Source: Flavobacteriaceae bacterium (GTDB taxonomy: Bacteria > Bacteroidota > Bacteroidia > Flavobacteriales > Flavobacteriaceae). Taken from it: DNA of 64,000 nucleotides. The notes beneath the pieces are model-generated. The model made no database searches. It worked only from the letters and a program-made list of their open reading frames with translations, and was not told where the DNA came from. Location of the stretch: positions 1 to 64,000 of the forward strand of contig JABHSQ010000005.1 in the NCBI GenBank assembly GCA_018669795.1, given 5' to 3'. Within the stretch, counting starts at the first letter, position 1. Each line of letters starts with the position of its first letter. Below, piece after piece: positions 50,492 to 60,472 of this stretch. A program made the translations under genes and the position numbers.

Positions 50492-52240
50492 ATGAACGTA
50501 GCAGAACAAATATTAAAAATTTTAGAAGAAGTAGGTGTTCAACAAATTTGGGGAGTCACGGGAGATGCTTTAAATTCTTTTACAGACGCATTGCAAAGTG
50601 ATCATGCTAAAATAAAATGGAACGCTGTCCGTCATGAAGAAAATGGTGCTTTTGCAGCTTGTGCAGAAGCACAAATAACTGGAAACCTAGCTGTTTGTGC
50701 AGGTACCGTTGGTCCTGGTACATTACATTTAATAAATGGTATGTACAATGCAAAAAAAGAACGTGTTCCCCTACTAGCCATTAGTGGACAAGTGGCTCGT
50801 GTAAACATGGGCACGAATTACTTTCAGGAAGTAGGTCTTACTAACATTTTTGATGATGTATGTGCTTATCAGGCAGTTATTCGTTCAGCAGAAGAAGCGC
50901 CTAGAGTTGTGTTACGTGCCATACAAATTGCTTTAGAACAAAAGGCGGTTGTACGTGTTGAAGTTCCTGTTGACATTGCAATTCAACTTGCTTCGGGTGA
51001 TCATTTTATACATCCTGTTATCAGGTCGAATGCTATTTTGGTCCCATCTGATATTGATATAGATAATGTTGCCAATATGCTGAATGAGAATAAGAAAATA
51101 ACAATTTTCGCAGGAGCAGGTTGCATTAATTGTAAAGAAGACGTAATTGCTCTTTCTGAAAAATTAAAAGCACCTATAGTACATACGTTTCGCTCTTCAG
51201 ATATTTTCCATAAGGAAGATAAAAACGTGGTAGGTCTTACAGGATTAATTGGAAATCCAAGTGGCTATCATGCGGTTATGCATACTGATGTCTTATTAAT
51301 GCTAGGTACTGATTTCCCTTATAGTAATTTTCTGCCGGATCATTGTAAAATAATTCAAATTGATAAGCGTATCGAAAACATTGGCAATAGAGTTAAAGTT
51401 AATCTAGGTGTGCATGGTGATTGTGGTCCTGCTATTTCAAAATTAATACCTAAAGTGATTAAGAAGGATAACTCAAAATTCTTAAACCATTTAGTTGATA
51501 GTTTTGCAAAGTGGAAAAAACATAAAGAAAAAAATAGTACTCTTGTAAATGATGGTGAACCTTTACATCCACAATTGTTTATTAATGAAATCAACAAAAA
51601 AGCTTCAGAGGAAGCCTGCTTTACCGTTGATGTAGGTGAAAGTGCCATTTGGGTGGCGCATCACTTAACGTTGCATACAAACAGAAGGTTACTGGGTTCA
51701 TTCAATCATGGCTCGATGGGAGTTGGTTTTCCAGCAGCAATGGGTATTCAATCGGTAAGCCCAGAAAAACAAGTTTGGGCAATTGTAGGAGATGGAGCTT
51801 TTGGAATGTGTATGAATGATTTTATTACAGCCGTGCGATACAATTGGCCAATAAAAATTTTGGTCTATAACAATAGTCAATTGGGCTTTGTGAAAATTGA
51901 AGGAGAAGAATCAGGATATGCTTTTACCGATAAGGCATTAAAACTCACGAACCCTAATTTTGCTGAATATGCAAAACTCTGTGGTGGCGATGGTATTCGA
52001 GTAGAACATGCAAAAGATATTCCAGAAGCTATCGAGATGGCTATTGCATCCACTAAGCCTTTTATTATTGACGCAATTACCAATCCTGGAGAACTATCCT
52101 TACCACCTCACATAAGTATAGAAGAAGCTTGGGGGTTTGGAAAATCGAAAGTTAAAGAAATACTGTTAGCTGTAAAAGGAGAACAAGAACAAAAGGAAAA
52201 TTTAATGAATGAATTAAAAGGGTTGCTGCGCAAACTGTAA
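50492..52240 (+). CDS. Pyruvate:quinone oxidoreductase / pyruvate oxidase-like TPP enzyme
   Basis: A 582-aa TPP enzyme of the PoxB/pyruvate oxidase family. The TPP-activating glutamate is in AVRHEENGAFAACAEA, and the cofactor-binding GDGAFGMCMNDF ... NN is near residue 435. The middle domain is typical of the FAD-type group. E. coli PoxB decarboxylates pyruvate to acetate and passes electrons to quinone at the membrane, which would feed the downstream respiratory genes. Acetolactate synthase is less likely in this context. The C-terminus (MNELKGLLRKL) is amphipathic, as in PoxB membrane binding. Confidence 0.85.
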   Translation: MNVAEQILKILEEVGVQQIWGVTGDALNSFTDALQSDHAKIKWNAVRHEENGAFAACAEAQITGNLAVCAGTVGPGTLHLINGMYNAKKERVPLLAISGQVARVNMGTNYFQEVGLTNIFDDVCAYQAVIRSAEEAPRVVLRAIQIALEQKAVVRVEVPVDIAIQLASGDHFIHPVIRSNAILVPSDIDIDNVANMLNENKKITIFAGAGCINCKEDVIALSEKLKAPIVHTFRSSDIFHKEDKNVVGLTGLIGNPSGYHAVMHTDVLLMLGTDFPYSNFLPDHCKIIQIDKRIENIGNRVKVNLGVHGDCGPAISKLIPKVIKKDNSKFLNHLVDSFAKWKKHKEKNSTLVNDGEPLHPQLFINEINKKASEEACFTVDVGESAIWVAHHLTLHTNRRLLGSFNHGSMGVGFPAAMGIQSVSPEKQVWAIVGDGAFGMCMNDFITAVRYNWPIKILVYNNSQLGFVKIEGEESGYAFTDKALKLTNPNFAEYAKLCGGDGIRVEHAKDIPEAIEMAIASTKPFIIDAITNPGELSLPPHISIEEAWGFGKSKVKEILLAVKGEQEQKENLMNELKGLLRKL

Positions 52241-52357
52241 TTCTTTTTTCATTATCTAGTTAGCAATGCTTATTTAAAATAGATTATTTGAGAAAACAGT
52301 ATTGTTATATTTATTATCAGATAAAAGATTTTTGTGTTGCACCATAACGATAATTTT

Positions 52358-52456
52358 ATGGAACAAATTTTCTTTTCTCTTTTTCTAACGTTTAGTACGT
52401 TATTGTTTCTAAAATTATTAAATTTGATAATTATCTGCAGAGCAGAAGAGACTTAA
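52358..52456 (+). CDS. Possible single-helix small protein upstream of coxB (32 aa)
   Basis: ATG-started frame, 32 codons, encoding MEQIFFSLFLTFSTLLFL with a hydrophobic core. It could be a small oxidase-associated peptide, but at this length in AT-rich DNA chance is a serious alternative. Confidence 0.25.
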   Translation: MEQIFFSLFLTFSTLLFLKLLNLIIICRAEET

Positions 52457-52467
52457 ATTATATATGA

Positions 52468-52536
52468 ATGGCTGCAAAAAAGGTTCAGTATAAATCAGAA
52501 TTTAAGGATAAATTGTTCTTGGCTAACCTAAAATAA
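52468..52536 (+). CDS. Possible 22-aa leader peptide before coxB
   Basis: The frame reads MAAKKVQYKSEFKDKLFLAN and stops 15 bases before the coxB GTG. It is basic and hydrophilic, with no recognised family. It could be a leader peptide or chance. Confidence 0.2.
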   Translation: MAAKKVQYKSEFKDKLFLANLK

Positions 52537-52551
52537 ATATTAGATTTATAA

Positions 52552-53478
52552 GTGCCAAACTACTATTTTTTAAAAATAACCGATGTTGATTTAATCGAAG
52601 AATTATTCGTCTACTTTCTTATAGTAGCGAGTATTATTTTTTTATTGGTTGTTTTCTTTACTTTCTTTTTTCTGTTTCGATATGGAGTAAAAAAAAGACC
52701 TAAAAAACCTTCTCAAATAGAGAGTGCTGGACAAGCAGAATCTGTTCTGGCAATAATAGTTACAATCGTTATAGGAGTGTTTGTTTATTTAACCATAGTT
52801 ACTATGGAAAAAGTACAAACAATACCTGAAAACCCCAAACCATTTTTAGAAATAACAGGACATCAATGGTGGTGGGAAGCAAAATATCCAAATAGTGGTG
52901 TTGTAACCTCAAACCAAATTTATATTCCTACCGGTAAAAAAATTCTTTTAAAATTAAACTCAGCAGATGTAATACATAGCTGGTGGGTTCCTGAATTGGG
53001 TAGAAAAATGGATATGATGCCAGGCAGGGATAATTATATGTGGTTTTATGCAGATAAAGAAGGAGAATATTTAGGAACTTGTAGTGAGTTTTGTGGGGTG
53101 CAACACGCTCGCATGAGAATTAGAGTTACCGCTCTAAATCCTGAAGCGTTTGAAGTCTGGGAACAACAACAATTAAGGCCTGTTGCAACTACTAATACTA
53201 AAGATTTCCTAAAAGGGAAACAATTATTTGAAACAAAAACCTGTACCAATTGTCATGCTATTAATGGAACTGATTTTAAAGAAAATATTGGTCCAAATTT
53301 GACTCACTTTGCTAGTCGAAAACGTTTTCTAGCTGATATGAAAGTCAATAATGAAAAAAATTTAAGGGCATGGTTAACAAATCCGCAAGACGTTAAATCG
53401 GGAGCAAAAATGCCAAACTTTATTTTATCGGAATCAGAAGTTGATGCTTTGGTTGCATATTTAAATTATTTAAAATGA
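52552..53478 (+). CDS. coxB: caa3-type cytochrome c oxidase subunit II with fused cytochrome c
   Basis: Two N-terminal helices (about residues 18-45 and 64-85) precede the CuA domain. Its ligands are His142 (VIHSWW), Cys177, Cys181, His185 and Met188 (CSEFCGVQHARM). A C-terminal cytochrome c domain follows, with CTNCH at 231-235 and a Met ligand in KMPNF. This fusion makes it a caa3-type oxidase that takes electrons from another cytochrome c. The start is GTG. It overlaps coxA by four bases. Because the N-terminus (VPNYYFLK) has no signal peptide, the first helix acts as one. Confidence 0.93.
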   Translation: MPNYYFLKITDVDLIEELFVYFLIVASIIFLLVVFFTFFFLFRYGVKKRPKKPSQIESAGQAESVLAIIVTIVIGVFVYLTIVTMEKVQTIPENPKPFLEITGHQWWWEAKYPNSGVVTSNQIYIPTGKKILLKLNSADVIHSWWVPELGRKMDMMPGRDNYMWFYADKEGEYLGTCSEFCGVQHARMRIRVTALNPEAFEVWEQQQLRPVATTNTKDFLKGKQLFETKTCTNCHAINGTDFKENIGPNLTHFASRKRFLADMKVNNEKNLRAWLTNPQDVKSGAKMPNFILSESEVDALVAYLNYLK

Positions 53479-55130
53479 GTTTATTCATAAACATACCAGA
53501 AGATAAAGAGCCATTACCATCCCTAAAAACAGGACGTGGTAAATTATTATGGATTGCTTCTACAGATCATAAGCAGCTGGGTATTATGTATTTATGTTTG
53601 GCGTTATTTTTCTTTGTTATAGGTGGATTAGAAGCCATGGCCATTCGTGCACAATTGGCATTACCAGATAACGATTTGATTTCTCCGGAACTCTATAATC
53701 AAATCTTTACTATGCATGGAACAACCATGATATTTTTGGTTTTAATGCCTGCAATGGTAGGCTTAGCTACCTATCTAATCCCATTAATGATTGGTGCTAA
53801 TGAAATGGCATTTCCACGCCTTAACGCCTTTAGTTTATGGATGACTTGTTTAGGTGGAATGCTGTTATATTTTAGTTTTTTTGCAGGTGGTGCACCAAAT
53901 GCGGGATGGTTTAATTATGCACCTTTGAGTGAAAACAATTACTCTTCGACCAAAGGTGTTGATTATTTTTTGGTGGGCTTAATATTAACTGGGATTGGAA
54001 GTATTGGTGCTGGACTTAATTTTATAACCACCATACTTACTCTAAGATCACCAGATATTAAATTAAACATGCTACCACTATTTGTATGGATGATGTTAGT
54101 TAATGCATTTTTGATGTTAGCGGCATTTCCATTGCTAAATGCAGGATTGTTTATGATGTTAATTGATAGACAGTTTGATGCCCATTTCTTTATTCCTTCT
54201 ACTGGGGGTTCTGCGATTTTATGGCAACACTTTTTTTGGGCATTTGGACATCCTGAAGTTTATATTTTGGCATTACCAGCTTTTGGGATAATTTCAGAAG
54301 TCATTCCTGTCTTTTCAAGAAAACCTATTTATGGTTATAAATTCGTAGCTTCTTCCTCTGTTGCCATTGGACTTTTGTCATATAGCGTATGGGCACATCA
54401 CATGTTTTCGGTTGGTCTTTCAAATGCAGTTAATGGTTTTTTTGCGATAAGTAGTATGCTCATAGGAATACCAACGGGTTTAAAAGTTATTAACTGGATT
54501 GGAACTATGCACAAAGGAAGTATTTCATTATCTATACCAATGTTGTTTGCAATTGCTTTTTTAGTCGATTTTACCTTTGGAGGATTAAGTGGTATTTCTT
54601 TTGCTATTGTACCTATAGATTGGCAGTTAACAGATACCTATTATTTGGTGGCACATTTACACTACGTATTTTTGGGAGGGAGTCTCTTCGGTATTTTTGC
54701 TGGAATTTATTATTGGTTTCCTAAAATAAGTGGTAGAATGCTATCCCCTAAATTGGGCAAATGGCATTTTTGGTTGTTCGTTTTAGGGTTTAATTTAACC
54801 TTCTTTTTACAACATATTTTAGGGATTTTAGGAATGCCAAGGCGTATTTACACCTATCCAGATTTACCGTATTGGAAAGTATTAAATATATTTTCATCTA
54901 TTGGAGCTGTATTTATGTTTATTGGTATGGCTATTTTCTTTTGGAATATTTATAAAACCTTAAAAAAACCAAGAACAGCAGTTGCAAATCCTTGGGATGC
55001 TTGGACCTTGGAATGGTCAACACCTTCTCCTCCAGAACTAAAGAATTTTGATGAAATTCCTCAAGTACACAGCAGAAGACCTCTATGGGATTTAAACAAT
55101 CCTGATAATCCTGATAAAAAACTGAATTGA
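53475..55130 (+). CDS. coxA: Cytochrome c oxidase subunit I (haem-copper, A1 type)
   Basis: Catalytic subunit reducing O2. Low-spin haem ligand His81 (MHGTTM) and the CuB/cross-link segment GHPEVY (His259, Glu261, Tyr263) are present; the proton glutamate in XGHPEV is the A1-type signature. The later LHYVFLGG region (VAHLHYVFLGG) holds the haem a3 and second low-spin His. At the D-channel mouth the usual Asp (GAPDMAFPR) is Glu here (GANEMAFPRLN). The length (551 aa) is normal. It overlaps coxB (ATGA). Confidence 0.96.
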   Translation: MSLFINIPEDKEPLPSLKTGRGKLLWIASTDHKQLGIMYLCLALFFFVIGGLEAMAIRAQLALPDNDLISPELYNQIFTMHGTTMIFLVLMPAMVGLATYLIPLMIGANEMAFPRLNAFSLWMTCLGGMLLYFSFFAGGAPNAGWFNYAPLSENNYSSTKGVDYFLVGLILTGIGSIGAGLNFITTILTLRSPDIKLNMLPLFVWMMLVNAFLMLAAFPLLNAGLFMMLIDRQFDAHFFIPSTGGSAILWQHFFWAFGHPEVYILALPAFGIISEVIPVFSRKPIYGYKFVASSSVAIGLLSYSVWAHHMFSVGLSNAVNGFFAISSMLIGIPTGLKVINWIGTMHKGSISLSIPMLFAIAFLVDFTFGGLSGISFAIVPIDWQLTDTYYLVAHLHYVFLGGSLFGIFAGIYYWFPKISGRMLSPKLGKWHFWLFVLGFNLTFFLQHILGILGMPRRIYTYPDLPYWKVLNIFSSIGAVFMFIGMAIFFWNIYKTLKKPRTAVANPWDAWTLEWSTPSPPELKNFDEIPQVHSRRPLWDLNNPDNPDKKLN

Positions 55131-55684
55131 TGCATAGAGATAAAGGAAAATTATTGATGATATTTTTTATTTTTTCAGAAACGTTCTTTTTTATAGCGCT
55201 TATAATTGCTTATGTCTATTATCGAAATTTCTCGGATGCGACGGATACAGTAGCAAAACATTTAGACGCATTTAGAGCAGGAATTTTTACACTATTTTTA
55301 ATCGCAAGTAGCTTCACCTTATTATTTAGTAAAAAAGCATTGCTGAAAAAAAAATATACCAACTTTAAACTATGGATGGCTTTAACCATTCTATTTGGTG
55401 TTATTTTTATGCTGGGTCAAGTAACTGAATATATCGGTTTGTATCAAAAGCAAATAACATTAGAAAAAGACATATTTGGATCTAGTTTTTTTACACTTAC
55501 TGGCTTCCATGGTTTGCATGTTATTTTAGGAATTATTGCTTTGGGGATTCTTTTTGCGATGTCCTTTGGAAAGTTAAAAAAGGTTGCTTTTTCTGGTATT
55601 AATGGAGTAGATATATACTGGCATTTTGTAGATATTGTTTGGTTATTCGTTTTTTATTTTGTCTATATAACACCATTATTATGA
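55130..55684 (+). CDS. coxC: Cytochrome c oxidase subunit III
   Basis: A 184-aa protein with five helices, the short caa3-type form. The hallmark FHGLHVILGIIALG (TGFHGLHV) and WHFVDIVWLFVFYFVYI are present. I chose the ATG at 55130, which overlaps the coxA stop, over the TTG just before it. It overlaps the next gene by four bases. Confidence 0.94.
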   Translation: MHRDKGKLLMIFFIFSETFFFIALIIAYVYYRNFSDATDTVAKHLDAFRAGIFTLFLIASSFTLLFSKKALLKKKYTNFKLWMALTILFGVIFMLGQVTEYIGLYQKQITLEKDIFGSSFFTLTGFHGLHVILGIIALGILFAMSFGKLKKVAFSGINGVDIYWHFVDIVWLFVFYFVYITPLL

Positions 55685-56535
55685 GCGCAACAGATTATTT
55701 TTCAAACCCTTATAACTGGTCATTTATAGGATTCTTATTTTTAATAGCATTTATACTAACTTATTTATTGCTATTTAAAACGACTAGCATTCAAAAAGTA
55801 TTGTTTTGTACCGCGGTGGTATTGATGTACTTAGTTTTAGGATCTCCTATTTCAAATTTGACCAATTATGGACTTCATAGTATAAGCATGCTGCAGCATA
55901 TTGTACTATTAATGGTTTCACCTATTTTAATAATAAAATCATTACCTTTAAAATCAATCGATAATAAATTTTTCAATAAACTTGGAGTATTTAATCAGCC
56001 AAAAAAATATTTTATACTAATTTGGATTATTGGTGCTTTAGTGATGTGGTTAGGACATTTTTTAAGTGCAGCAATCATGTCTTCTAAATACGGATTAGTT
56101 ATTTGTGGTATCAATATACCCAAAAACAGTTTCCTTTTACAAATACCCGAGGTATCCATTTATACCTTATTATTTTTAGCAGGATTTCTAATGACTTTAC
56201 CAGTATTTCATCCCAATAAAAATAAACGTTTGCACCCAGTTAAAAGTGTCATGTATTTATTTACTGCATGTATTAGTTGCTCTATTTTAGGACTTTATGT
56301 TACATTTATGGCATCTTCAACTTCTATGGCAGAAGCGATTCCAATTTTTGCAAGTTTTAGAAACCCCATGCCGATGTCTGTGAGAACTGATCAAGAAATA
56401 GCAGGATTAATGATGTGGGTTCCTAGTTGTATATTGTATGTTATTTCTTCAGTAGAAATACTTTTTCATTGGTATGATGACAATTCTGCAATAGATGAAA
56501 TACAACAGTTAAAAGCAAGTCTTTCAGATAAATAA
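55681..56535 (+). CDS. ctaG: caa3-type oxidase assembly protein, CtaG family
   Basis: A 284-aa multi-helix protein of the caa3_CtaG group, which helps copper insertion into or assembly of haem-copper oxidases. Features are SISMLQHIVLLMVSPIL, RDxxM-type FRNPMPMS and seven or so hydrophobic segments. The ATG at 55681 overlaps the coxC stop (ATGA); the upstream in-frame codons from 55639 lie inside coxC and are not used. It is distinct from the Cox11-type CtaG of proteobacteria. Confidence 0.85.
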   Translation: MSATDYFSNPYNWSFIGFLFLIAFILTYLLLFKTTSIQKVLFCTAVVLMYLVLGSPISNLTNYGLHSISMLQHIVLLMVSPILIIKSLPLKSIDNKFFNKLGVFNQPKKYFILIWIIGALVMWLGHFLSAAIMSSKYGLVICGINIPKNSFLLQIPEVSIYTLLFLAGFLMTLPVFHPNKNKRLHPVKSVMYLFTACISCSILGLYVTFMASSTSMAEAIPIFASFRNPMPMSVRTDQEIAGLMMWVPSCILYVISSVEILFHWYDDNSAIDEIQQLKASLSDK

Positions 56536-56541
56536 AATATT

Positions 56542-56760
56542 ATGACTGAAAAAAACACCTATAAAGCACAACCAGAAGAACTTCCAAAACCAACCTATTG
56601 GCCATTCTTTTTGGCTTTAGGAGTTGTACTGATATTTTGGGGTATATTAACATCGTGGATTATTACTGGAATTGGATTTATTCTTTTTGGAATAGCTATT
56701 ACAGGATGGATAATGGAGATTTATAAAGAACTATCAAAAAAAGAGAAAGATGAGTTGTGA
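56542..56760 (+). CDS. Small oxidase subunit IV-like membrane protein
   Basis: A 72-aa protein with two hydrophobic stretches (YWPFFLALGVVLIFWGIL and WIITGIGFILFGIAITGWI) and the KPTYWPFFLA pattern of bacterial cytochrome oxidase subunit IV-like proteins. The role is assembly or stability. It overlaps the Rieske gene by 11 bases, so translation is probably coupled. Confidence 0.8.
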   Translation: MTEKNTYKAQPEELPKPTYWPFFLALGVVLIFWGILTSWIITGIGFILFGIAITGWIMEIYKELSKKEKDEL

Positions 56761-57280
56761 TTGCGAAGAACAAAAAACAACTGACTTAAATTTAGAAGCA
56801 GTTAATAGAAGAAGTTTTTTAACGAAGATTACTATTGCAATTGGTGGTTTTATAGGAACAGTTTTGGCTTTTCCTTTAATTACCGCTATGCTAGACCCTG
56901 TAACTAGAAAAAAAGATACTACTTGGCGAAATGTTGGTGGTCTAATTGATTTTGAAGAAGGCAAAACAAAAATGGTGTCTTTTGAAAATGCTTCACCTTA
57001 TAAATGGAGTGGAGAAATAGCGTATTCTGCGGCATATGTCAGAAGAGAAGAAAATAATAAATTAACAGCTTTTTCTGTGAATTGCGCTCATCTAGGATGT
57101 CCTGTGAGATGGGAAGAAAAACCAGAATTATTTATGTGTCCTTGTCATGGAGGTGTCTATTATAAAGACGGTTCAAGAGCAGCTGGACCACCACCAAGAG
57201 GCTTACATACTTATCCAATCCGCATAGTGAATAATCAAGTTGAAATAGAAACTCAAGCAATTCCAATAACTAATATATAA
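56750..57280 (+). CDS. qcrA: Rieske [2Fe-2S] protein of a cytochrome b complex
   Basis: A 176-aa Rieske protein. The cluster ligands are Cys112 and His114 (CAHLGC, with Cys117 forming the disulfide) and Cys130, Cys132, His133 (CPCHGG), so the fold is complete. The N-terminal NRRSFLT followed by a helix (about 26-46) is a twin-arginine-type signal anchor. It takes electrons from quinol and passes them to cytochrome c. It is followed, after 89 bases, by the cytochrome b gene. Confidence 0.93.
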   Translation: MSCDCEEQKTTDLNLEAVNRRSFLTKITIAIGGFIGTVLAFPLITAMLDPVTRKKDTTWRNVGGLIDFEEGKTKMVSFENASPYKWSGEIAYSAAYVRREENNKLTAFSVNCAHLGCPVRWEEKPELFMCPCHGGVYYKDGSRAAGPPPRGLHTYPIRIVNNQVEIETQAIPITNI

Positions 57281-57369
57281 GACTCAAATACCCGATGGCT
57301 ATCCATAAATCAAACGAAATGAACATTTACAACTTACAAATCGGACAATTTATTTAATATTTAATTCTT

Positions 57370-58773
57370 ATGAAAAAAATACTAAAAAATATAGGATGTT
57401 GGTTAGATGACCGGGGGGGATTCAGTGATTTATTAAAACCATTGACAACACATTTGGTGCCACCAGAATCTACATGGAATTACGTTTGGGGGAGTGCCAC
57501 CTTGTTTTGTTTTATTTTACAGGTCATAACAGGAATTGCTTTAGGCTTTTTATATCAACCATCAGTAGATGTAGCCTATCAATCATTGCAGTACATAGAA
57601 AACCAAGCTTTTATGGGGAGCTTTATTCGTGGTCTGCATAATTGGGGAGCTTCTGGTATGGTGTTTTTAATGGGAATGCACATGATACGGGTTTATTTAA
57701 ATGCAGCTTATAAGTATCCACGTGAAATGAGCTGGATAACTGGTGTAGTTTTAATGGTGATTACCATTGTCATGGCATTTACAGGCCAGTTATTACGTTG
57801 GGATAATAATGGTGTTTGGTCTGCCATAGTTGCGGCTGAACAAATGGGAAGAATCCCACTTATAGGAGATTCATTGGCTTATTTTTTATTAGGTGGTGAT
57901 ACTATTGGTGGCGAAACATTGAATCGATTTTTTGCAATGCATGTATTTTTATTTCCTGCTTTGTTATTTTCATTTGTAGGATACCACTTGTATTTAGTAT
58001 TTAGAAATGGTATTTCTGAACCACCAAAAGTGGGAAGATTGGTTAATCCAAAAACTTATAAAAAATGGTATGAAGATATGCTCATAAAAAAAGGGGTTCC
58101 TTTTTTTCCGGATGCTATTTGGCGAGATGCTGTTTTTAGTGCATTCGTATTAATTGTTATAGTATGTCTAGCATGGTTTATTGGTGCACCAGAATTATCG
58201 TCAAAACCAGATTTAACCAATGTAAATTCAAACCCTAAACCCGATTGGTATTTTACATGGATTTTTGCTCTTTTTGCATTAATGCCTCGTGAAATTGAAT
58301 CCTATGTCATGTTTTTAGGTCCTTTGCTTGTAGGTATATTACTGTTTTCCATACCTTTTTTATCGAATAAAGGGGAACGTAGTCCTTTACGAAGACCTTG
58401 GGCAATTACTGGTGTCGTTTTTATAATTTTAAGCATTAGTTCATTATGGTATGTTGGAATACAAGAACCATGGTCTCCTCGTTTCGACGCCAAACCTTTA
58501 TCTGAATACACAACAGTTCCAGATGCTTCGACTGAAATAAAAAAAGGTATTGAACTTTTCAATACTGTAGGCTGTATATATTGTCACAGGATAGGAAATC
58601 AGGGGGGTATTCGTGGACCTGAATTGACAAATGTACAAAACCGATTGACCAAAGATCAAATGGTTATTCGAATTGTTAATGGAGCAGAAAACATGCCTGC
58701 TTATGGGGGTTCTTTATCAAAAGAAGAACTAGAGGCTATCGTTATCTTTTTATCGGCTAAAGAAAAACAATAA
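57370..58773 (+). CDS. Cytochrome b with C-terminal fused cytochrome c (quinol oxidation)
   Basis: A 467-aa fusion. The cytochrome b part has the haem-ligand pairs His90/His104 (13 residues between) and His191/His206 (14 between, the b6f-type spacing). The quinol-site motif is PDWY (291-294), a form linked with menaquinol users. The C-terminal cytochrome c domain (about 385-467) has CIYCH (402-406) and a Met ligand in AENMPAYGG. It should carry electrons from menaquinol to the attached cytochrome c, then to the caa3 oxidase. There is no separate cytochrome c1. Confidence 0.92.
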   Translation: MKKILKNIGCWLDDRGGFSDLLKPLTTHLVPPESTWNYVWGSATLFCFILQVITGIALGFLYQPSVDVAYQSLQYIENQAFMGSFIRGLHNWGASGMVFLMGMHMIRVYLNAAYKYPREMSWITGVVLMVITIVMAFTGQLLRWDNNGVWSAIVAAEQMGRIPLIGDSLAYFLLGGDTIGGETLNRFFAMHVFLFPALLFSFVGYHLYLVFRNGISEPPKVGRLVNPKTYKKWYEDMLIKKGVPFFPDAIWRDAVFSAFVLIVIVCLAWFIGAPELSSKPDLTNVNSNPKPDWYFTWIFALFALMPREIESYVMFLGPLLVGILLFSIPFLSNKGERSPLRRPWAITGVVFIILSISSLWYVGIQEPWSPRFDAKPLSEYTTVPDASTEIKKGIELFNTVGCIYCHRIGNQGGIRGPELTNVQNRLTKDQMVIRIVNGAENMPAYGGSLSKEELEAIVIFLSAKEKQ

Positions 58774-58945
58774 ACACCGAAACCATAAGATATAAATATG
58801 TTTTATAAAAGTTATTATTTATTTCAGTATATTGTTATTATTCAGTTGTTCAAAGCCTTGTACTATTGCAAATTGTGATCTTACAATTTTCGAAGCTAGA
58901 AAAATCACTTGTAAAAACAAAAAGATATTTAAAATTAAATATATT

Positions 58946-60472
58946 ATGAGAGAAGCTATTAAATTTACATGTATTGCCTTGCTTATTATCATTGTTATTA
59001 CTTGTGTTTCCATCTGGCCAATTTACGGATTTTCAACTCTTGGGATATTGATTTTTGGTTTAGGTATCCATGATATTACCCAAAAAAAACACGCTATTTT
59101 AAGAAATTTTCCTGTTTTAGGTCACATGCGTTTTTTACTTGAATTAATCGGTCCAGAAATTCATCAATATTTTATAGAAAGTGATACCGACGGAAAACCA
59201 ATAAACAGAAACCATCGTTCCTATATTTACGAACGTGCAAAACTAGAAAGGGAAACACATCCTTTTGGTACAGAGATTAATGTTGAAGAAGAAGGCTATA
59301 AATGGTTACAACATAGTATTTATGCTGCAAAGCAGTTAGAAGAGCCACCAAGAGTCTTGGTTGGAGGCCCAGATTGCAAACAACCCTATTCGGCAAGTAT
59401 ATTTAATATTTCGGCCATGAGTTTTGGTGCTTTAAGTAAAAATGCTATCATGGCATTGAATATAGGTGCCAAAGCTGGTAACTTTTTCCATGATACAGGT
59501 GAAGGTGGGATTTCAGAATACCATAGAAAGGGTGGAGATTTGGTGTATGAAATTGGAACTGGTTATTTTGGATGTAGAACCGAAGACGGGCATTTTTCAG
59601 CTGAAAAATTAAAAGAAAAAGCAGCCTTTTCTGAAGTAAAAATGATTGAAATTAAAATTTCACAAGGTGCAAAACCAGGACATGGGGGTGTTTTGCCTGC
59701 GGCAAAGAATAATGAGGAAATTGCTACAATTAGAGGAGTACAACCGCATACAGTTGTTATTTCACCACCGAGCCATAGTGCTTTTAGAAATGCGAAAGAA
59801 TTATGTGCATGGATTAAGCAATTACGTGATCTATCTATGGGAAAGCCAATAGGCTTTAAATTATGTATTGGAAATAAAAAAGAGTTTATAGATATCTGTG
59901 AAGCTATGATTGAAACAGGGATAAAACCAGATTTTATAACAGTCGATGGAGGAGAGGGTGGTACTGGGGCTGCTCCAATTGATTTTTCAAATTATGTTGG
60001 TATGCCTTGGGAAAAAGCCATGATTTTTGTGGTTGATACCTTAAATGGATATGGTCTTAAAAAAGACATAAAAGTTTTTACAGCAACTAAAATTTTTACA
60101 GCTTTCGATATTTTTAAGGCATTTTGTATAGGTGCAGATATATGTAGTTCCGCTCGTGGTATGATGTTAGCTTTGGGTTGTATTCAAGCAATACGTTGCG
60201 ACACCAATAAATGCCCAACAGGAGTTACCTCTAGTAATCCTAAGTTTATGAGAGGACTAGTTGTTGAAGATAAATGGAAACGAGTAAAAAATTACCAACA
60301 CGAAACGGTTAACGACTTTTTAGAATTATTTGCTGGTGCAGGTTGTACAGAGTTATCGCAACTCAATAGAAGCTTTATTCATAAAAAAGTAGGTGATGAG
60401 ATTAAATCATATGAAGAATTATATCCATCAGTAATTGAAAACTCATTACTTAAAATGAACAATGTAGAATAA
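58946..60472 (+). CDS. FMN-binding glutamate synthase-like protein
   Basis: A 508-aa protein with an N-terminal membrane helix (about residues 4-25) and a glutamate synthase FMN/Fe-S domain, with the substrate/FMN segments SAMSFGALS, HDTGEGGISEYH, KPGHGG and VDGGEGGTGAAP. The Fe-S cysteines are visible in GCIQAIRCDTNKCPTG. It lacks the amidotransferase domain of full glutamate synthase. The physiological reaction of this family is not settled. I chose the ATG at 58946 (MREAIKFTC), because the upstream frame has no ATG and reads as a cysteine-rich leader. The link to respiration is only positional. Confidence 0.85.
   Translation: MREAIKFTCIALLIIIVITCVSIWPIYGFSTLGILIFGLGIHDITQKKHAILRNFPVLGHMRFLLELIGPEIHQYFIESDTDGKPINRNHRSYIYERAKLERETHPFGTEINVEEEGYKWLQHSIYAAKQLEEPPRVLVGGPDCKQPYSASIFNISAMSFGALSKNAIMALNIGAKAGNFFHDTGEGGISEYHRKGGDLVYEIGTGYFGCRTEDGHFSAEKLKEKAAFSEVKMIEIKISQGAKPGHGGVLPAAKNNEEIATIRGVQPHTVVISPPSHSAFRNAKELCAWIKQLRDLSMGKPIGFKLCIGNKKEFIDICEAMIETGIKPDFITVDGGEGGTGAAPIDFSNYVGMPWEKAMIFVVDTLNGYGLKKDIKVFTATKIFTAFDIFKAFCIGADICSSARGMMLALGCIQAIRCDTNKCPTGVTSSNPKFMRGLVVEDKWKRVKNYQHETVNDFLELFAGAGCTELSQLNRSFIHKKVGDEIKSYEELYPSVIENSLLKMNNVE

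Follow-up and report, generated by a model that had tools for sequence, protein, structure and literature searches.

An accessory Rieske/cytochrome b-caa3 oxidase cassette, probably horizontally mobile, in a Flavobacteriaceae genome

The stretch of DNA analyzed here (the window) comprises 64,000 nucleotides of contig JABHSQ010000005.1 from a Flavobacteriaceae bacterium, contig C6 of a 2.25 Mb genome (G000) that is 99% complete; all coordinates are window positions. At 52552-58773 it harbors seven consecutive plus-strand genes in the order coxB(cyt c)-coxA-coxC-ctaG-coxIV-Rieske-cytb(cyt c). Together they are predicted to encode a caa3-type oxidase and a Rieske/cytochrome b complex, and we refer to them as the cassette.

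52552-53478, + strand: coxB, oxidase subunit II with a CuA domain and a C-terminal fused mono-haem cytochrome c; GTG start
53475-55130, + strand: coxA, haem-copper oxidase subunit I (TIGR02891 CtaD_CoxA, 695 bits, over the cut-off)
55127 (TTG) or 55130 (ATG)-55684, + strand: coxC, subunit III (PF00510, 78.3 bits)
55681-56535, + strand: ctaG, caa3 assembly factor (PF09678, 77.2 bits)
56542-56760, + strand: small oxidase subunit IV (CtaF-like), 72 amino acids (PF12270 Cyt_c_ox_IV, 28.6 bits; cut-off 26.9)
56750-57280, + strand: Rieske 2Fe-2S protein (PF00355, 38 bits) with an N-terminal RR (Tat-like) signal, read by eye
57370-58773, + strand: cytochrome b (b6 plus a subunit-IV-like part) with a C-terminal fused mono-haem cytochrome c

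Domain searches bore out all gene identities and positions that an initial annotation, made from the sequence alone, had proposed for 50492-60472, and the anatomy agrees with its claim of a separate cytochrome c for each complex, present here as a fusion. CoxB matched both PF00116 (COX2, 84.7 bits) and PF00034 (Cytochrom_C, 56 bits), with 2yev_B as its best solved relative (aligned residues 19-308), and the cytochrome b-c protein matched PF00033 (150 bits), PF00032 (26 bits) and PF13442 (39 bits). The same annotation had described overlaps of 4-11 bases at all junctions except for an 89-base gap before cytb. That gap is present, and coxB/coxA and coxC/ctaG each overlap by 4 bases and coxIV/Rieske by 11; ctaG and coxIV are separated by 6 bases, and the coxA/coxC overlap is 1 or 4 bases depending on the start codon. 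We counted 14 intact cassettes (11 in Bacteroidota and 3 in Deinococcus), excluding a remnant (L020/L043) and counting L018 and L042, which come from one genome, once. Because the seven-gene order recurs in 10 other Bacteroidota loci, and six of the genes in the 3 Deinococcus loci, we conclude from the gene orders that the arrangement is not a chance pattern. Relatives of subunit IV occupy the equivalent position in 10/10 other Bacteroidota cassettes. The Bizionia arctica cassette (L022) contains two inserted genes: L022:4691-5071, between coxB and coxA, encodes a SpoIIAA-like protein (PF11964), and L022:8193-9239, between ctaG and the subunit IV gene, a 348-residue protein with no Pfam match in which an HDxxH...E stretch recalls COQ4 by eye.

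The predicted redox ligands are retained: CuA, haem a/a3/CuB, two haems b, and two CxxCH motifs with a distal Met. In CoxA, residues E261, Y263, H81, H259, H308, H309, H394, H396 and K337 are invariant in alignment A2, and the protein carries the haem/CuB ligands, the HPEVY motif and the K-channel Lys of a caa3-type (A1) oxidase; the positions of the last two, and the roles of the ligand residues in the cassette proteins, are those that we take to apply to these families. Residue 110, which we take to be the D-channel entrance and normally Asp, is Glu in 8/9 cassette rows of A2 and, by eye, in L077, and Asp in Aequorivita (L017); on sequence grounds, Glu for Asp is a conservative change. The CuA residues of CoxB (C177, C181, H185 and M188) are invariant, and its CxxCH motif at 231-235 is found in 9/9 cassette rows of alignment A3. 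The cytochrome b haem ligands H90, H104, H191 and H206 are present in 14/14 intact cassettes, and these four His, C402xxCH and M442 are invariant across the 13 rows of alignment A5. The Cys-His boxes of the Rieske protein are present by eye.

The 13/14 haem-ligand spacing and the PDWY motif that had been noticed in the cytochrome b are both present, each in 14/14 cassettes. The reading of this spacing as a b6f/Firmicutes form did not hold. The spacing is non-discriminating because it also occurs in 51/52 non-cassette rows (65/66 overall; b6 included), among them proteobacterial and other-class Bacteroidota proteins, in a sample that is biased, as almost every row entered it through similarity to the cassette. 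Moreover, the equivalent of b6 Cys35, presumably the haem ci-binding cysteine and a Cys in b6 1vf5_A, is Val39 in 14/14 cassettes. We dropped b6f/Firmicutes (haem ci) membership on both counts. Mitochondrial-type bc1 complexes have 13/13 spacing and an 8-helix cytochrome b; this assignment failed on the 13/14 spacing and ~7 helices of the cassette protein, the latter counted as hydropathy segments plus helix B, which fell below the threshold used. Alternative complex III (ACIII) was rejected as an identity for the cassette, which contains no NrfD-like/ActD subunit; the act cluster of this genome lies separately, on contig C4. Among solved structures, b6 chains give the cytochrome b its highest scores, with QcrB chains far behind, and CoxA comes closest to chains of 9wcx, 6adq and 7rh6, which we take to be actinobacterial complexes. 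Because the cassette cytochromes b form one clade on a long stem (100/100), they appear, on present evidence, to be a distinct family in a tree built without sequences from Firmicutes or Aquificota, to which a link may exist.

The same genome encodes another respiratory chain. On contig C4, an act-type cluster is followed by a coxB without a cytochrome c domain and then coxA. Its order is multihaem ActA-like, iron-sulfur (FeS) ActB-like, NrfD-type ActC, ActD (PF11821, 204 bits), cytochrome c ActE-like and ActF-like (no Pfam match), with the letters A, B, C, E and F assigned from order and domains. A search for ACIII genes and a second cox cluster, proposed in the initial annotation, thus found both. 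Only two PF00115 oxidase matches were present in the genome, and a search with the bd oxidase profile PF01654 gave no match. The act-linked CoxA type was found in 18/19 genomes of the genus and the cassette CoxA in 2/19, the window genome and its sister G1121; 13 of these 19 genomes lie outside the class that is >=90% complete and <=5% contaminated. Identity between the two CoxA types is 35-41%, and in the CoxA tree a long branch separates them, placing the cassette CoxA far from that of the genus. These comparisons of sequence and gene content indicate that the cassette is an accessory second chain, parallel to a presumably ancestral ACIII-aa3 chain. A further cluster, on contig C2 at ~144.6-150.7 kb (L160:10658-16687), resembles a periplasmic nitrate reductase (NapA-like, two multihaem, FeS and NrfD proteins; names by eye except NrfD), and the organism may therefore also respire nitrate. 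We rejected the extra NrfD on C2 as a second ACIII because it sits within this cluster.

Intact cassettes are rare. In a draw from the family, 7/397 genomes matched at E <= 1e-10, 4 of them with an intact cassette (G000, G189, G259 and G033); the others were a genome with a cytochrome b remnant only (G144) and two with other cytochromes b at 29-33%. In a draw from the class, 15/395 genomes matched, and in one from the phylum 152/395. Only G000 (977 bits) and G426 (738 bits) reached cassette level in either; the other 13 in the class draw scored <=170 bits and the 150 others in the phylum draw, all outside the class, <=255 bits. The three draws partly overlap. Among genomes of named species, a pattern scan aimed at close relatives found the cassette in Leeuwenhoekiella sp., Aequorivita capsosiphonis, Pareuzebyella sediminis, Mesonia oceanica and Bizionia arctica, as well as in a Cyclobacteriaceae metagenome-assembled genome (MAG) and an uncultured Flavobacteriaceae, and a remnant in L. 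polynyae. Exactly one match to the cytochrome b-c protein is present in G000. The seven-gene order is kept in 11/11 Bacteroidota cassettes, with the two extra genes in Bizionia arctica, while the flanking genes vary from genus to genus. The Leeuwenhoekiella polynyae remnant (L020:10001-11047, L043) has an in-frame TAG and encodes 349 residues of cytochrome b-c, and the 19-21 kb viewed contain nothing else of the cassette; from its sequence, it is a decayed copy. Related open reading frames, zinc-peptidase MtfA/M90-like by eye (L016:3979-4746, L019:15578-16354 and L020:9104-9907), adjoin two cassettes and, by eye, this remnant. More distant fused cytochromes b-c were found in 2/398 Pseudomonadota genomes (E <= 1e-60, ~31% identity), with no adjoining CoxA, and in L078 from another class of Bacteroidota (31%, fused c), with no CoxA nearby. 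Among viral contigs, 42 pattern matches included no relative.

Two relatives within the genus bear on how the cassette came to lie where it does. In G1120, AcnA and the counterparts of the 46.4 kb, 47.2 kb and 61.2 kb genes of the window are in conserved order; the 4.6 kb interval that separates the 47.2 kb and 61.2 kb genes contains no cassette, PoxB or Glu_synthase gene. In the sister genome G1121 (locus L015), the cassette is in the equivalent place, with 0.18 kb where the window has ~2.26 kb with a poxB-like gene and 0.02 kb where it has 1.67 kb with a Glu_synthase gene. These two neighbors are separable from the cassette, as both are missing at L015. The ~300 bases upstream of coxB are conserved between the two loci, which suggests that the cassette may have a promoter of its own. 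At fourfold sites, 542/577 positions in six cassette genes were identical between window and sister, compared to 205/245 in three flanking genes (Fisher P = 8e-6; counts rebuilt from fractions). The cassette may have been exchanged recently, or synonymous sites may evolve more slowly in genes with high expression. The G+C content of cassette and flanks gave no clear contrast as a sign of transfer.

Relatives of the cytochrome b-c protein were also found outside Bacteroidota. Three of the 100 plasmid records that matched in a protein search cover >=80% of the query, and these full-length relatives (49-51%) are on megaplasmids of Deinococcus gobiensis, Deinococcus sp. AJ005 and Deinococcus sp. 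D7000. All three loci read coxB-coxA-coxC-CtaG (PF09678)-small membrane protein-Rieske-cytochrome b, with CoxA 53-55% identical; the small membrane protein at the place of subunit IV has no significant similarity to subunit IV. In D7000 (L091), a thiamine pyrophosphate (TPP) enzyme lies 0.2 kb downstream on the same strand, followed by an MR/MLE-family enolase and, further on, ASRT-family and GH15 genes. Relatives of all four surround the cassette within 19 kb in G426 (Bacteroidia, L077). The two sets are not fully collinear, since GH15 is on the opposite side in L077; TPP and MR/MLE genes follow the cassette in both. This common gene set offers the best indication that sharing between the phyla, in whichever direction, extended beyond the cassette. 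No donor outside Bacteroidota and Deinococcota was found in the data searched, which did not include Deinococcus chromosomes, Firmicutes or Aquificota. Other plasmid-borne coxBAC operons, L136 (Mesorhizobium sp. INR15) and L133 (Deinococcus sp. KNUC1210), have different donor modules beside them: pqq genes, a pyrroloquinoline quinone (PQQ) dehydrogenase and cytochrome c, or two c-type cytochromes.

Phylogenies of CoxA and cytochrome b, which the initial annotation had called for, support a foreign origin through the distance of the cassette CoxA from that of the genus; they include no Firmicutes or Aquificota, and the placement of Deinococcus differs between them. Cytochrome b places the Deinococcus rows within the Bacteroidota cassettes (99/95). 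By CoxA, the 11 Bacteroidota cassette loci form one clade with Deinococcus as sister, and the joint tree is rooted on Deinococcus. The cytochrome b tree omitted L014, L038-L041, L059, L069, L072, L075, L092, L094, L095, L097-L104 and L137-L144. The Cyclobacteriaceae row nests among Flavobacteriaceae, and a single Flavobacteriaceae clade (9 rows) was rejected by the approximately unbiased (AU) test (p = 3.9e-5). In sum, the annotation's view of the chain as accessory and transferred stands: the cassette is not the standard chain of close relatives inherited vertically, as judged by the second chain, the rarity of the cassette, the G1120 site without it, the far CoxA branch and the AU rejection.

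Two further plus-strand genes in the window adjoin the cassette; the downstream one, although within 50492-60472, went unmentioned in the initial annotation.

50492-52240, + strand: poxB-like pyruvate:quinone oxidoreductase (TPP/flavin), 311 bases upstream of coxB; a recurrent neighbor outside the core cassette
58946 (ATG)-60472, + strand: membrane-anchored glutamate-synthase-domain (FMN) protein (PF01645 Glu_synthase, 266 bits), also a neighbor of cassettes L019 and L022

The best solved relative of the PoxB-like protein is 3ey9/3eya (E 4e-132), with full-length similarity to 3ey9 (444 bits over residues 3-558). Against NCBIfam PRK09124 it scored 589.9 bits, under the equivalog cut-off of 792; from these scores it is a member of the family, and is not certified as an orthologue. 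A PoxB-family gene lies <= ~3.5 kb from 5/14 intact cassettes: at 0.3 kb in the window, 3.5 kb in L022, 2.1 kb on the opposite strand in L019, ~0.1 kb in L077 and 0.2 kb in L091. Their best NCBIfam scores are with PRK09124 for the window (the L022 protein is 81% identical to it), PRK06546 for L019 and PRK08273 for L077 and L091, the only two that passed a cut-off. We searched 11 carrier genomes whole (G000, G1121, G189, G259, G033, G426, G1124, G1125, G1128, G1129 and G1131). Nine contained one PoxB-like match (E < 1e-60), with none in G1121 and G1128, and the gene adjoins the cassette in four (G000, G426, G1124 and G1125); it is 24 kb off in G189, ~72 kb off in G259 and not near in G033, G1129 and G1131. 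None was found on the D. gobiensis and AJ005 plasmids. With one PoxB-like gene placed randomly in a 3.9 Mb genome, an assumption framed after the pattern had been seen, about 0.5% was expected for each genome and 4/11 has P = 2e-7. Merging the window and Bizionia raises this to 1.6e-5, and P is 3e-5 and 7e-4 under stricter assumptions. The merged versions are given because loci related by transfer are not independent. The association with a TPP neighbor is above chance and not obligatory. Other possible quinone reducers lie near individual cassettes: an NDH2-like protein in Pareuzebyella sediminis (L018:3083-4405), a molybdopterin enzyme with an FeS/NrfD protein (L021:14564-19078) and a GMC/gluconate-dehydrogenase-subunit-3-like protein near L091.

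We consider it likely, from gene content and phylogeny, that the cassette is an accessory, horizontally mobile operon for a complete short menaquinol-to-O2 chain, parallel to the ACIII-aa3 chain of the host. In this model, the Rieske/cytochrome b complex would oxidize menaquinol by a Q cycle. The high-potential electron would go to the haem c of cytochrome b, on to that of CoxB and then to CuA, haem a and haem a3-CuB, where O2 would be reduced, and a soluble electron carrier would be unnecessary. CtaG would act in assembly, and the small subunit IV would be part of the caa3 oxidase. Where present, the adjoining PoxB-family flavin-TPP enzyme could use pyruvate or a related 2-oxo acid to supply quinol to the pool. 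We infer menaquinol as the substrate (from the organism group), proton pumping, supercomplex formation, a pyruvate source and the conditions of use. Direct contact between the complexes is suggested by the cytochrome c fused to each and by the fact that the cassette contains no gene for a free cytochrome c. The two complexes probably form a tethered bcc-caa3 supercomplex, with a link to a flavin-TPP dehydrogenase in some cases.

Several observations weigh against parts of this model. Deinococcus is placed within the Bacteroidota cassettes by one tree and next to them by another, the cytochrome b tree has long branches, and a narrower 7-row AU test does not reject a Flavobacteriaceae clade (p = 0.077). 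G1120 is not a clean empty site, because the interval is also missing the DsbB- and MarC-like neighbors. Locus L021 comes from a MAG. An AlphaFold model of the cytochrome b-c protein (8 sequences) had a mean predicted local distance difference test (pLDDT) score of 38.7 and was not used to place the c domain. As to the pyruvate link, the TPP gene of L077 and L091 belongs to a different subfamily, PRK08273, and 9/14 cassettes have no TPP gene in the flanks viewed. The L015 cassette has neither the PoxB nor the Glu_synthase gene, and G1121 (87% complete) has no PoxB-like match; a pyruvate source would accordingly not be obligatory. The path from pyruvate drawn in the initial annotation is thus a supported optional extra, and its interpretation as a whole is partly supported.

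Rival accounts differ in what they make of the neighbors and of the patchy distribution. The cassette and an adjoining PoxB/flavin-TPP or sugar dehydrogenase might form an insulated unit, a redox overflow valve via menaquinol. PoxB-family neighbors from three subfamilies, and the NDH2-like, NrfD-linked molybdoenzyme and GMC/gluconate-dehydrogenase-like neighbors of L018, L021 and L091, fit such a dedicated chain. Menaquinol, however, is a common pool, and the absence of PoxB from L015 and from the viewed flanks of 9/14 cassettes speaks against it as well; we regard it as rather unlikely. If the neighbors are incidental, the cassette could instead be a back-up that respires when ACIII-aa3 is blocked by quinol-site inhibitors, nitric oxide, sulfide or cyanide. 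Duplication of both complexes in parallel, the patchy distribution, plasmid carriage and a genome without bd oxidase as an alternative are consistent with this idea. Besides TPP and Glu_synthase, however, no neighbor family in the cluster list is common to >=3 genera; the idea seems unlikely to us.

Inheritance offers two further accounts. The cassette could be an ancient, vertically inherited Bacteroidota chain that most lineages have lost, as the single clade of 11 Bacteroidota CoxA with Deinococcus as sister and the persisting L. polynyae remnant would allow. Yet it is very rare in the family and class draws, its CoxA was not found in 17/19 genus genomes, and the flanks are unlike; the nested Cyclobacteriaceae row with the 9-row AU result, and the excess of fourfold identity to the sister in cassette over flanking genes, likewise point the other way, making this account very unlikely. 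We give almost no credence to the cassette being the ordinary single respiratory chain of the organism, misread as accessory: that reading is rejected by the act-coxBA cluster in the same genome, the CoxA type of which is nearly universal in the genus.

Taken at its broadest, the accessory, mobile chain would be a self-contained "respiratory island", a menaquinol-to-O2 supercomplex free of soluble carriers, sometimes with its own flavin-TPP or sugar dehydrogenase, that crossed between Bacteroidota and Deinococcota together with approximately four metabolic genes. This extension is possible, though we lean somewhat against it. If true, it would be an exception to the view of complexes III and IV as core, vertically inherited equipment of these lineages. 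The cassette itself suggests that joint transfer of complexes III and IV, along with the haems c that link them, is possible both by plasmid and between phyla, and it is a small natural kit that may add a proton-motive chain to a host. In carriers of both ACIII-aa3 and the Rieske/cytochrome b-caa3 chain, two quinol-oxidizing machines could be compared within one cell.

Among known systems, the cassette resembles the obligate bcc-aa3 supercomplex of the organisms in 6adq and 7q21, presumably actinobacteria, in its putative passage of electrons from menaquinol to O2 without soluble cytochrome c, in having there its closest solved CoxA relatives, and in a subunit IV of the Cyt_c_ox_IV family. Actinobacterial QcrC is dihaem; the cassette instead has one haem c on cytochrome b and one on CoxB, no dihaem QcrC, and a cytochrome b nearest b6 rather than QcrB. 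Bacillus QcrABC and the CtaCDEFG caa3 oxidase comprise a Rieske protein, a b6-like cytochrome b, a subunit-IV/cytochrome c part, a cytochrome c-fused CoxB, CtaG and subunit IV. By that general description the gene content is the same, whereas in the cassette the b6 part, the subunit-IV part and cytochrome c are a single polypeptide within a single operon, and the haem-ci Cys position is Val.

In the open literature covered (titles and starts of abstracts, with subscription papers mostly uncovered), no description of a Rieske/cytochrome b-caa3 cassette in Bacteroidota or Deinococcus was found, and the available part of the D. gobiensis genome paper (PMC3314630) does not mention it. Rieske and cytochrome c genes under MliR are described in the accessible text on Bizionia argentinensis (PMC9478572); they could not be tied to the cassette. 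In the accessible sections of Degli Esposti et al. 2014 (PMC4013037), COX operons of type a-I have ACIII attached to cytochrome c-fused COX genes as a possible compact chain, and those of type a-II occur with PQQ dehydrogenases. Like type a-I, the cassette joins a quinol:cytochrome c oxidoreductase cluster to a COX operon, with Rieske/cytochrome b-c in place of ACIII. With type a-II, to which we would assign the plasmid locus L136, it appears to share an accessory COX operon with a donor module; the type a-II donor, as described there, is a PQQ dehydrogenase with cytochrome c and no quinol-oxidizing complex. Finally, in Flavobacterium johnsoniae, according to the part of the report available, ACIII is the sole electron source for aa3 (PMC8552683). 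That chain is the apparent counterpart of the C4 cluster, to which this genome adds a second predicted quinol oxidizer and a second oxidase.

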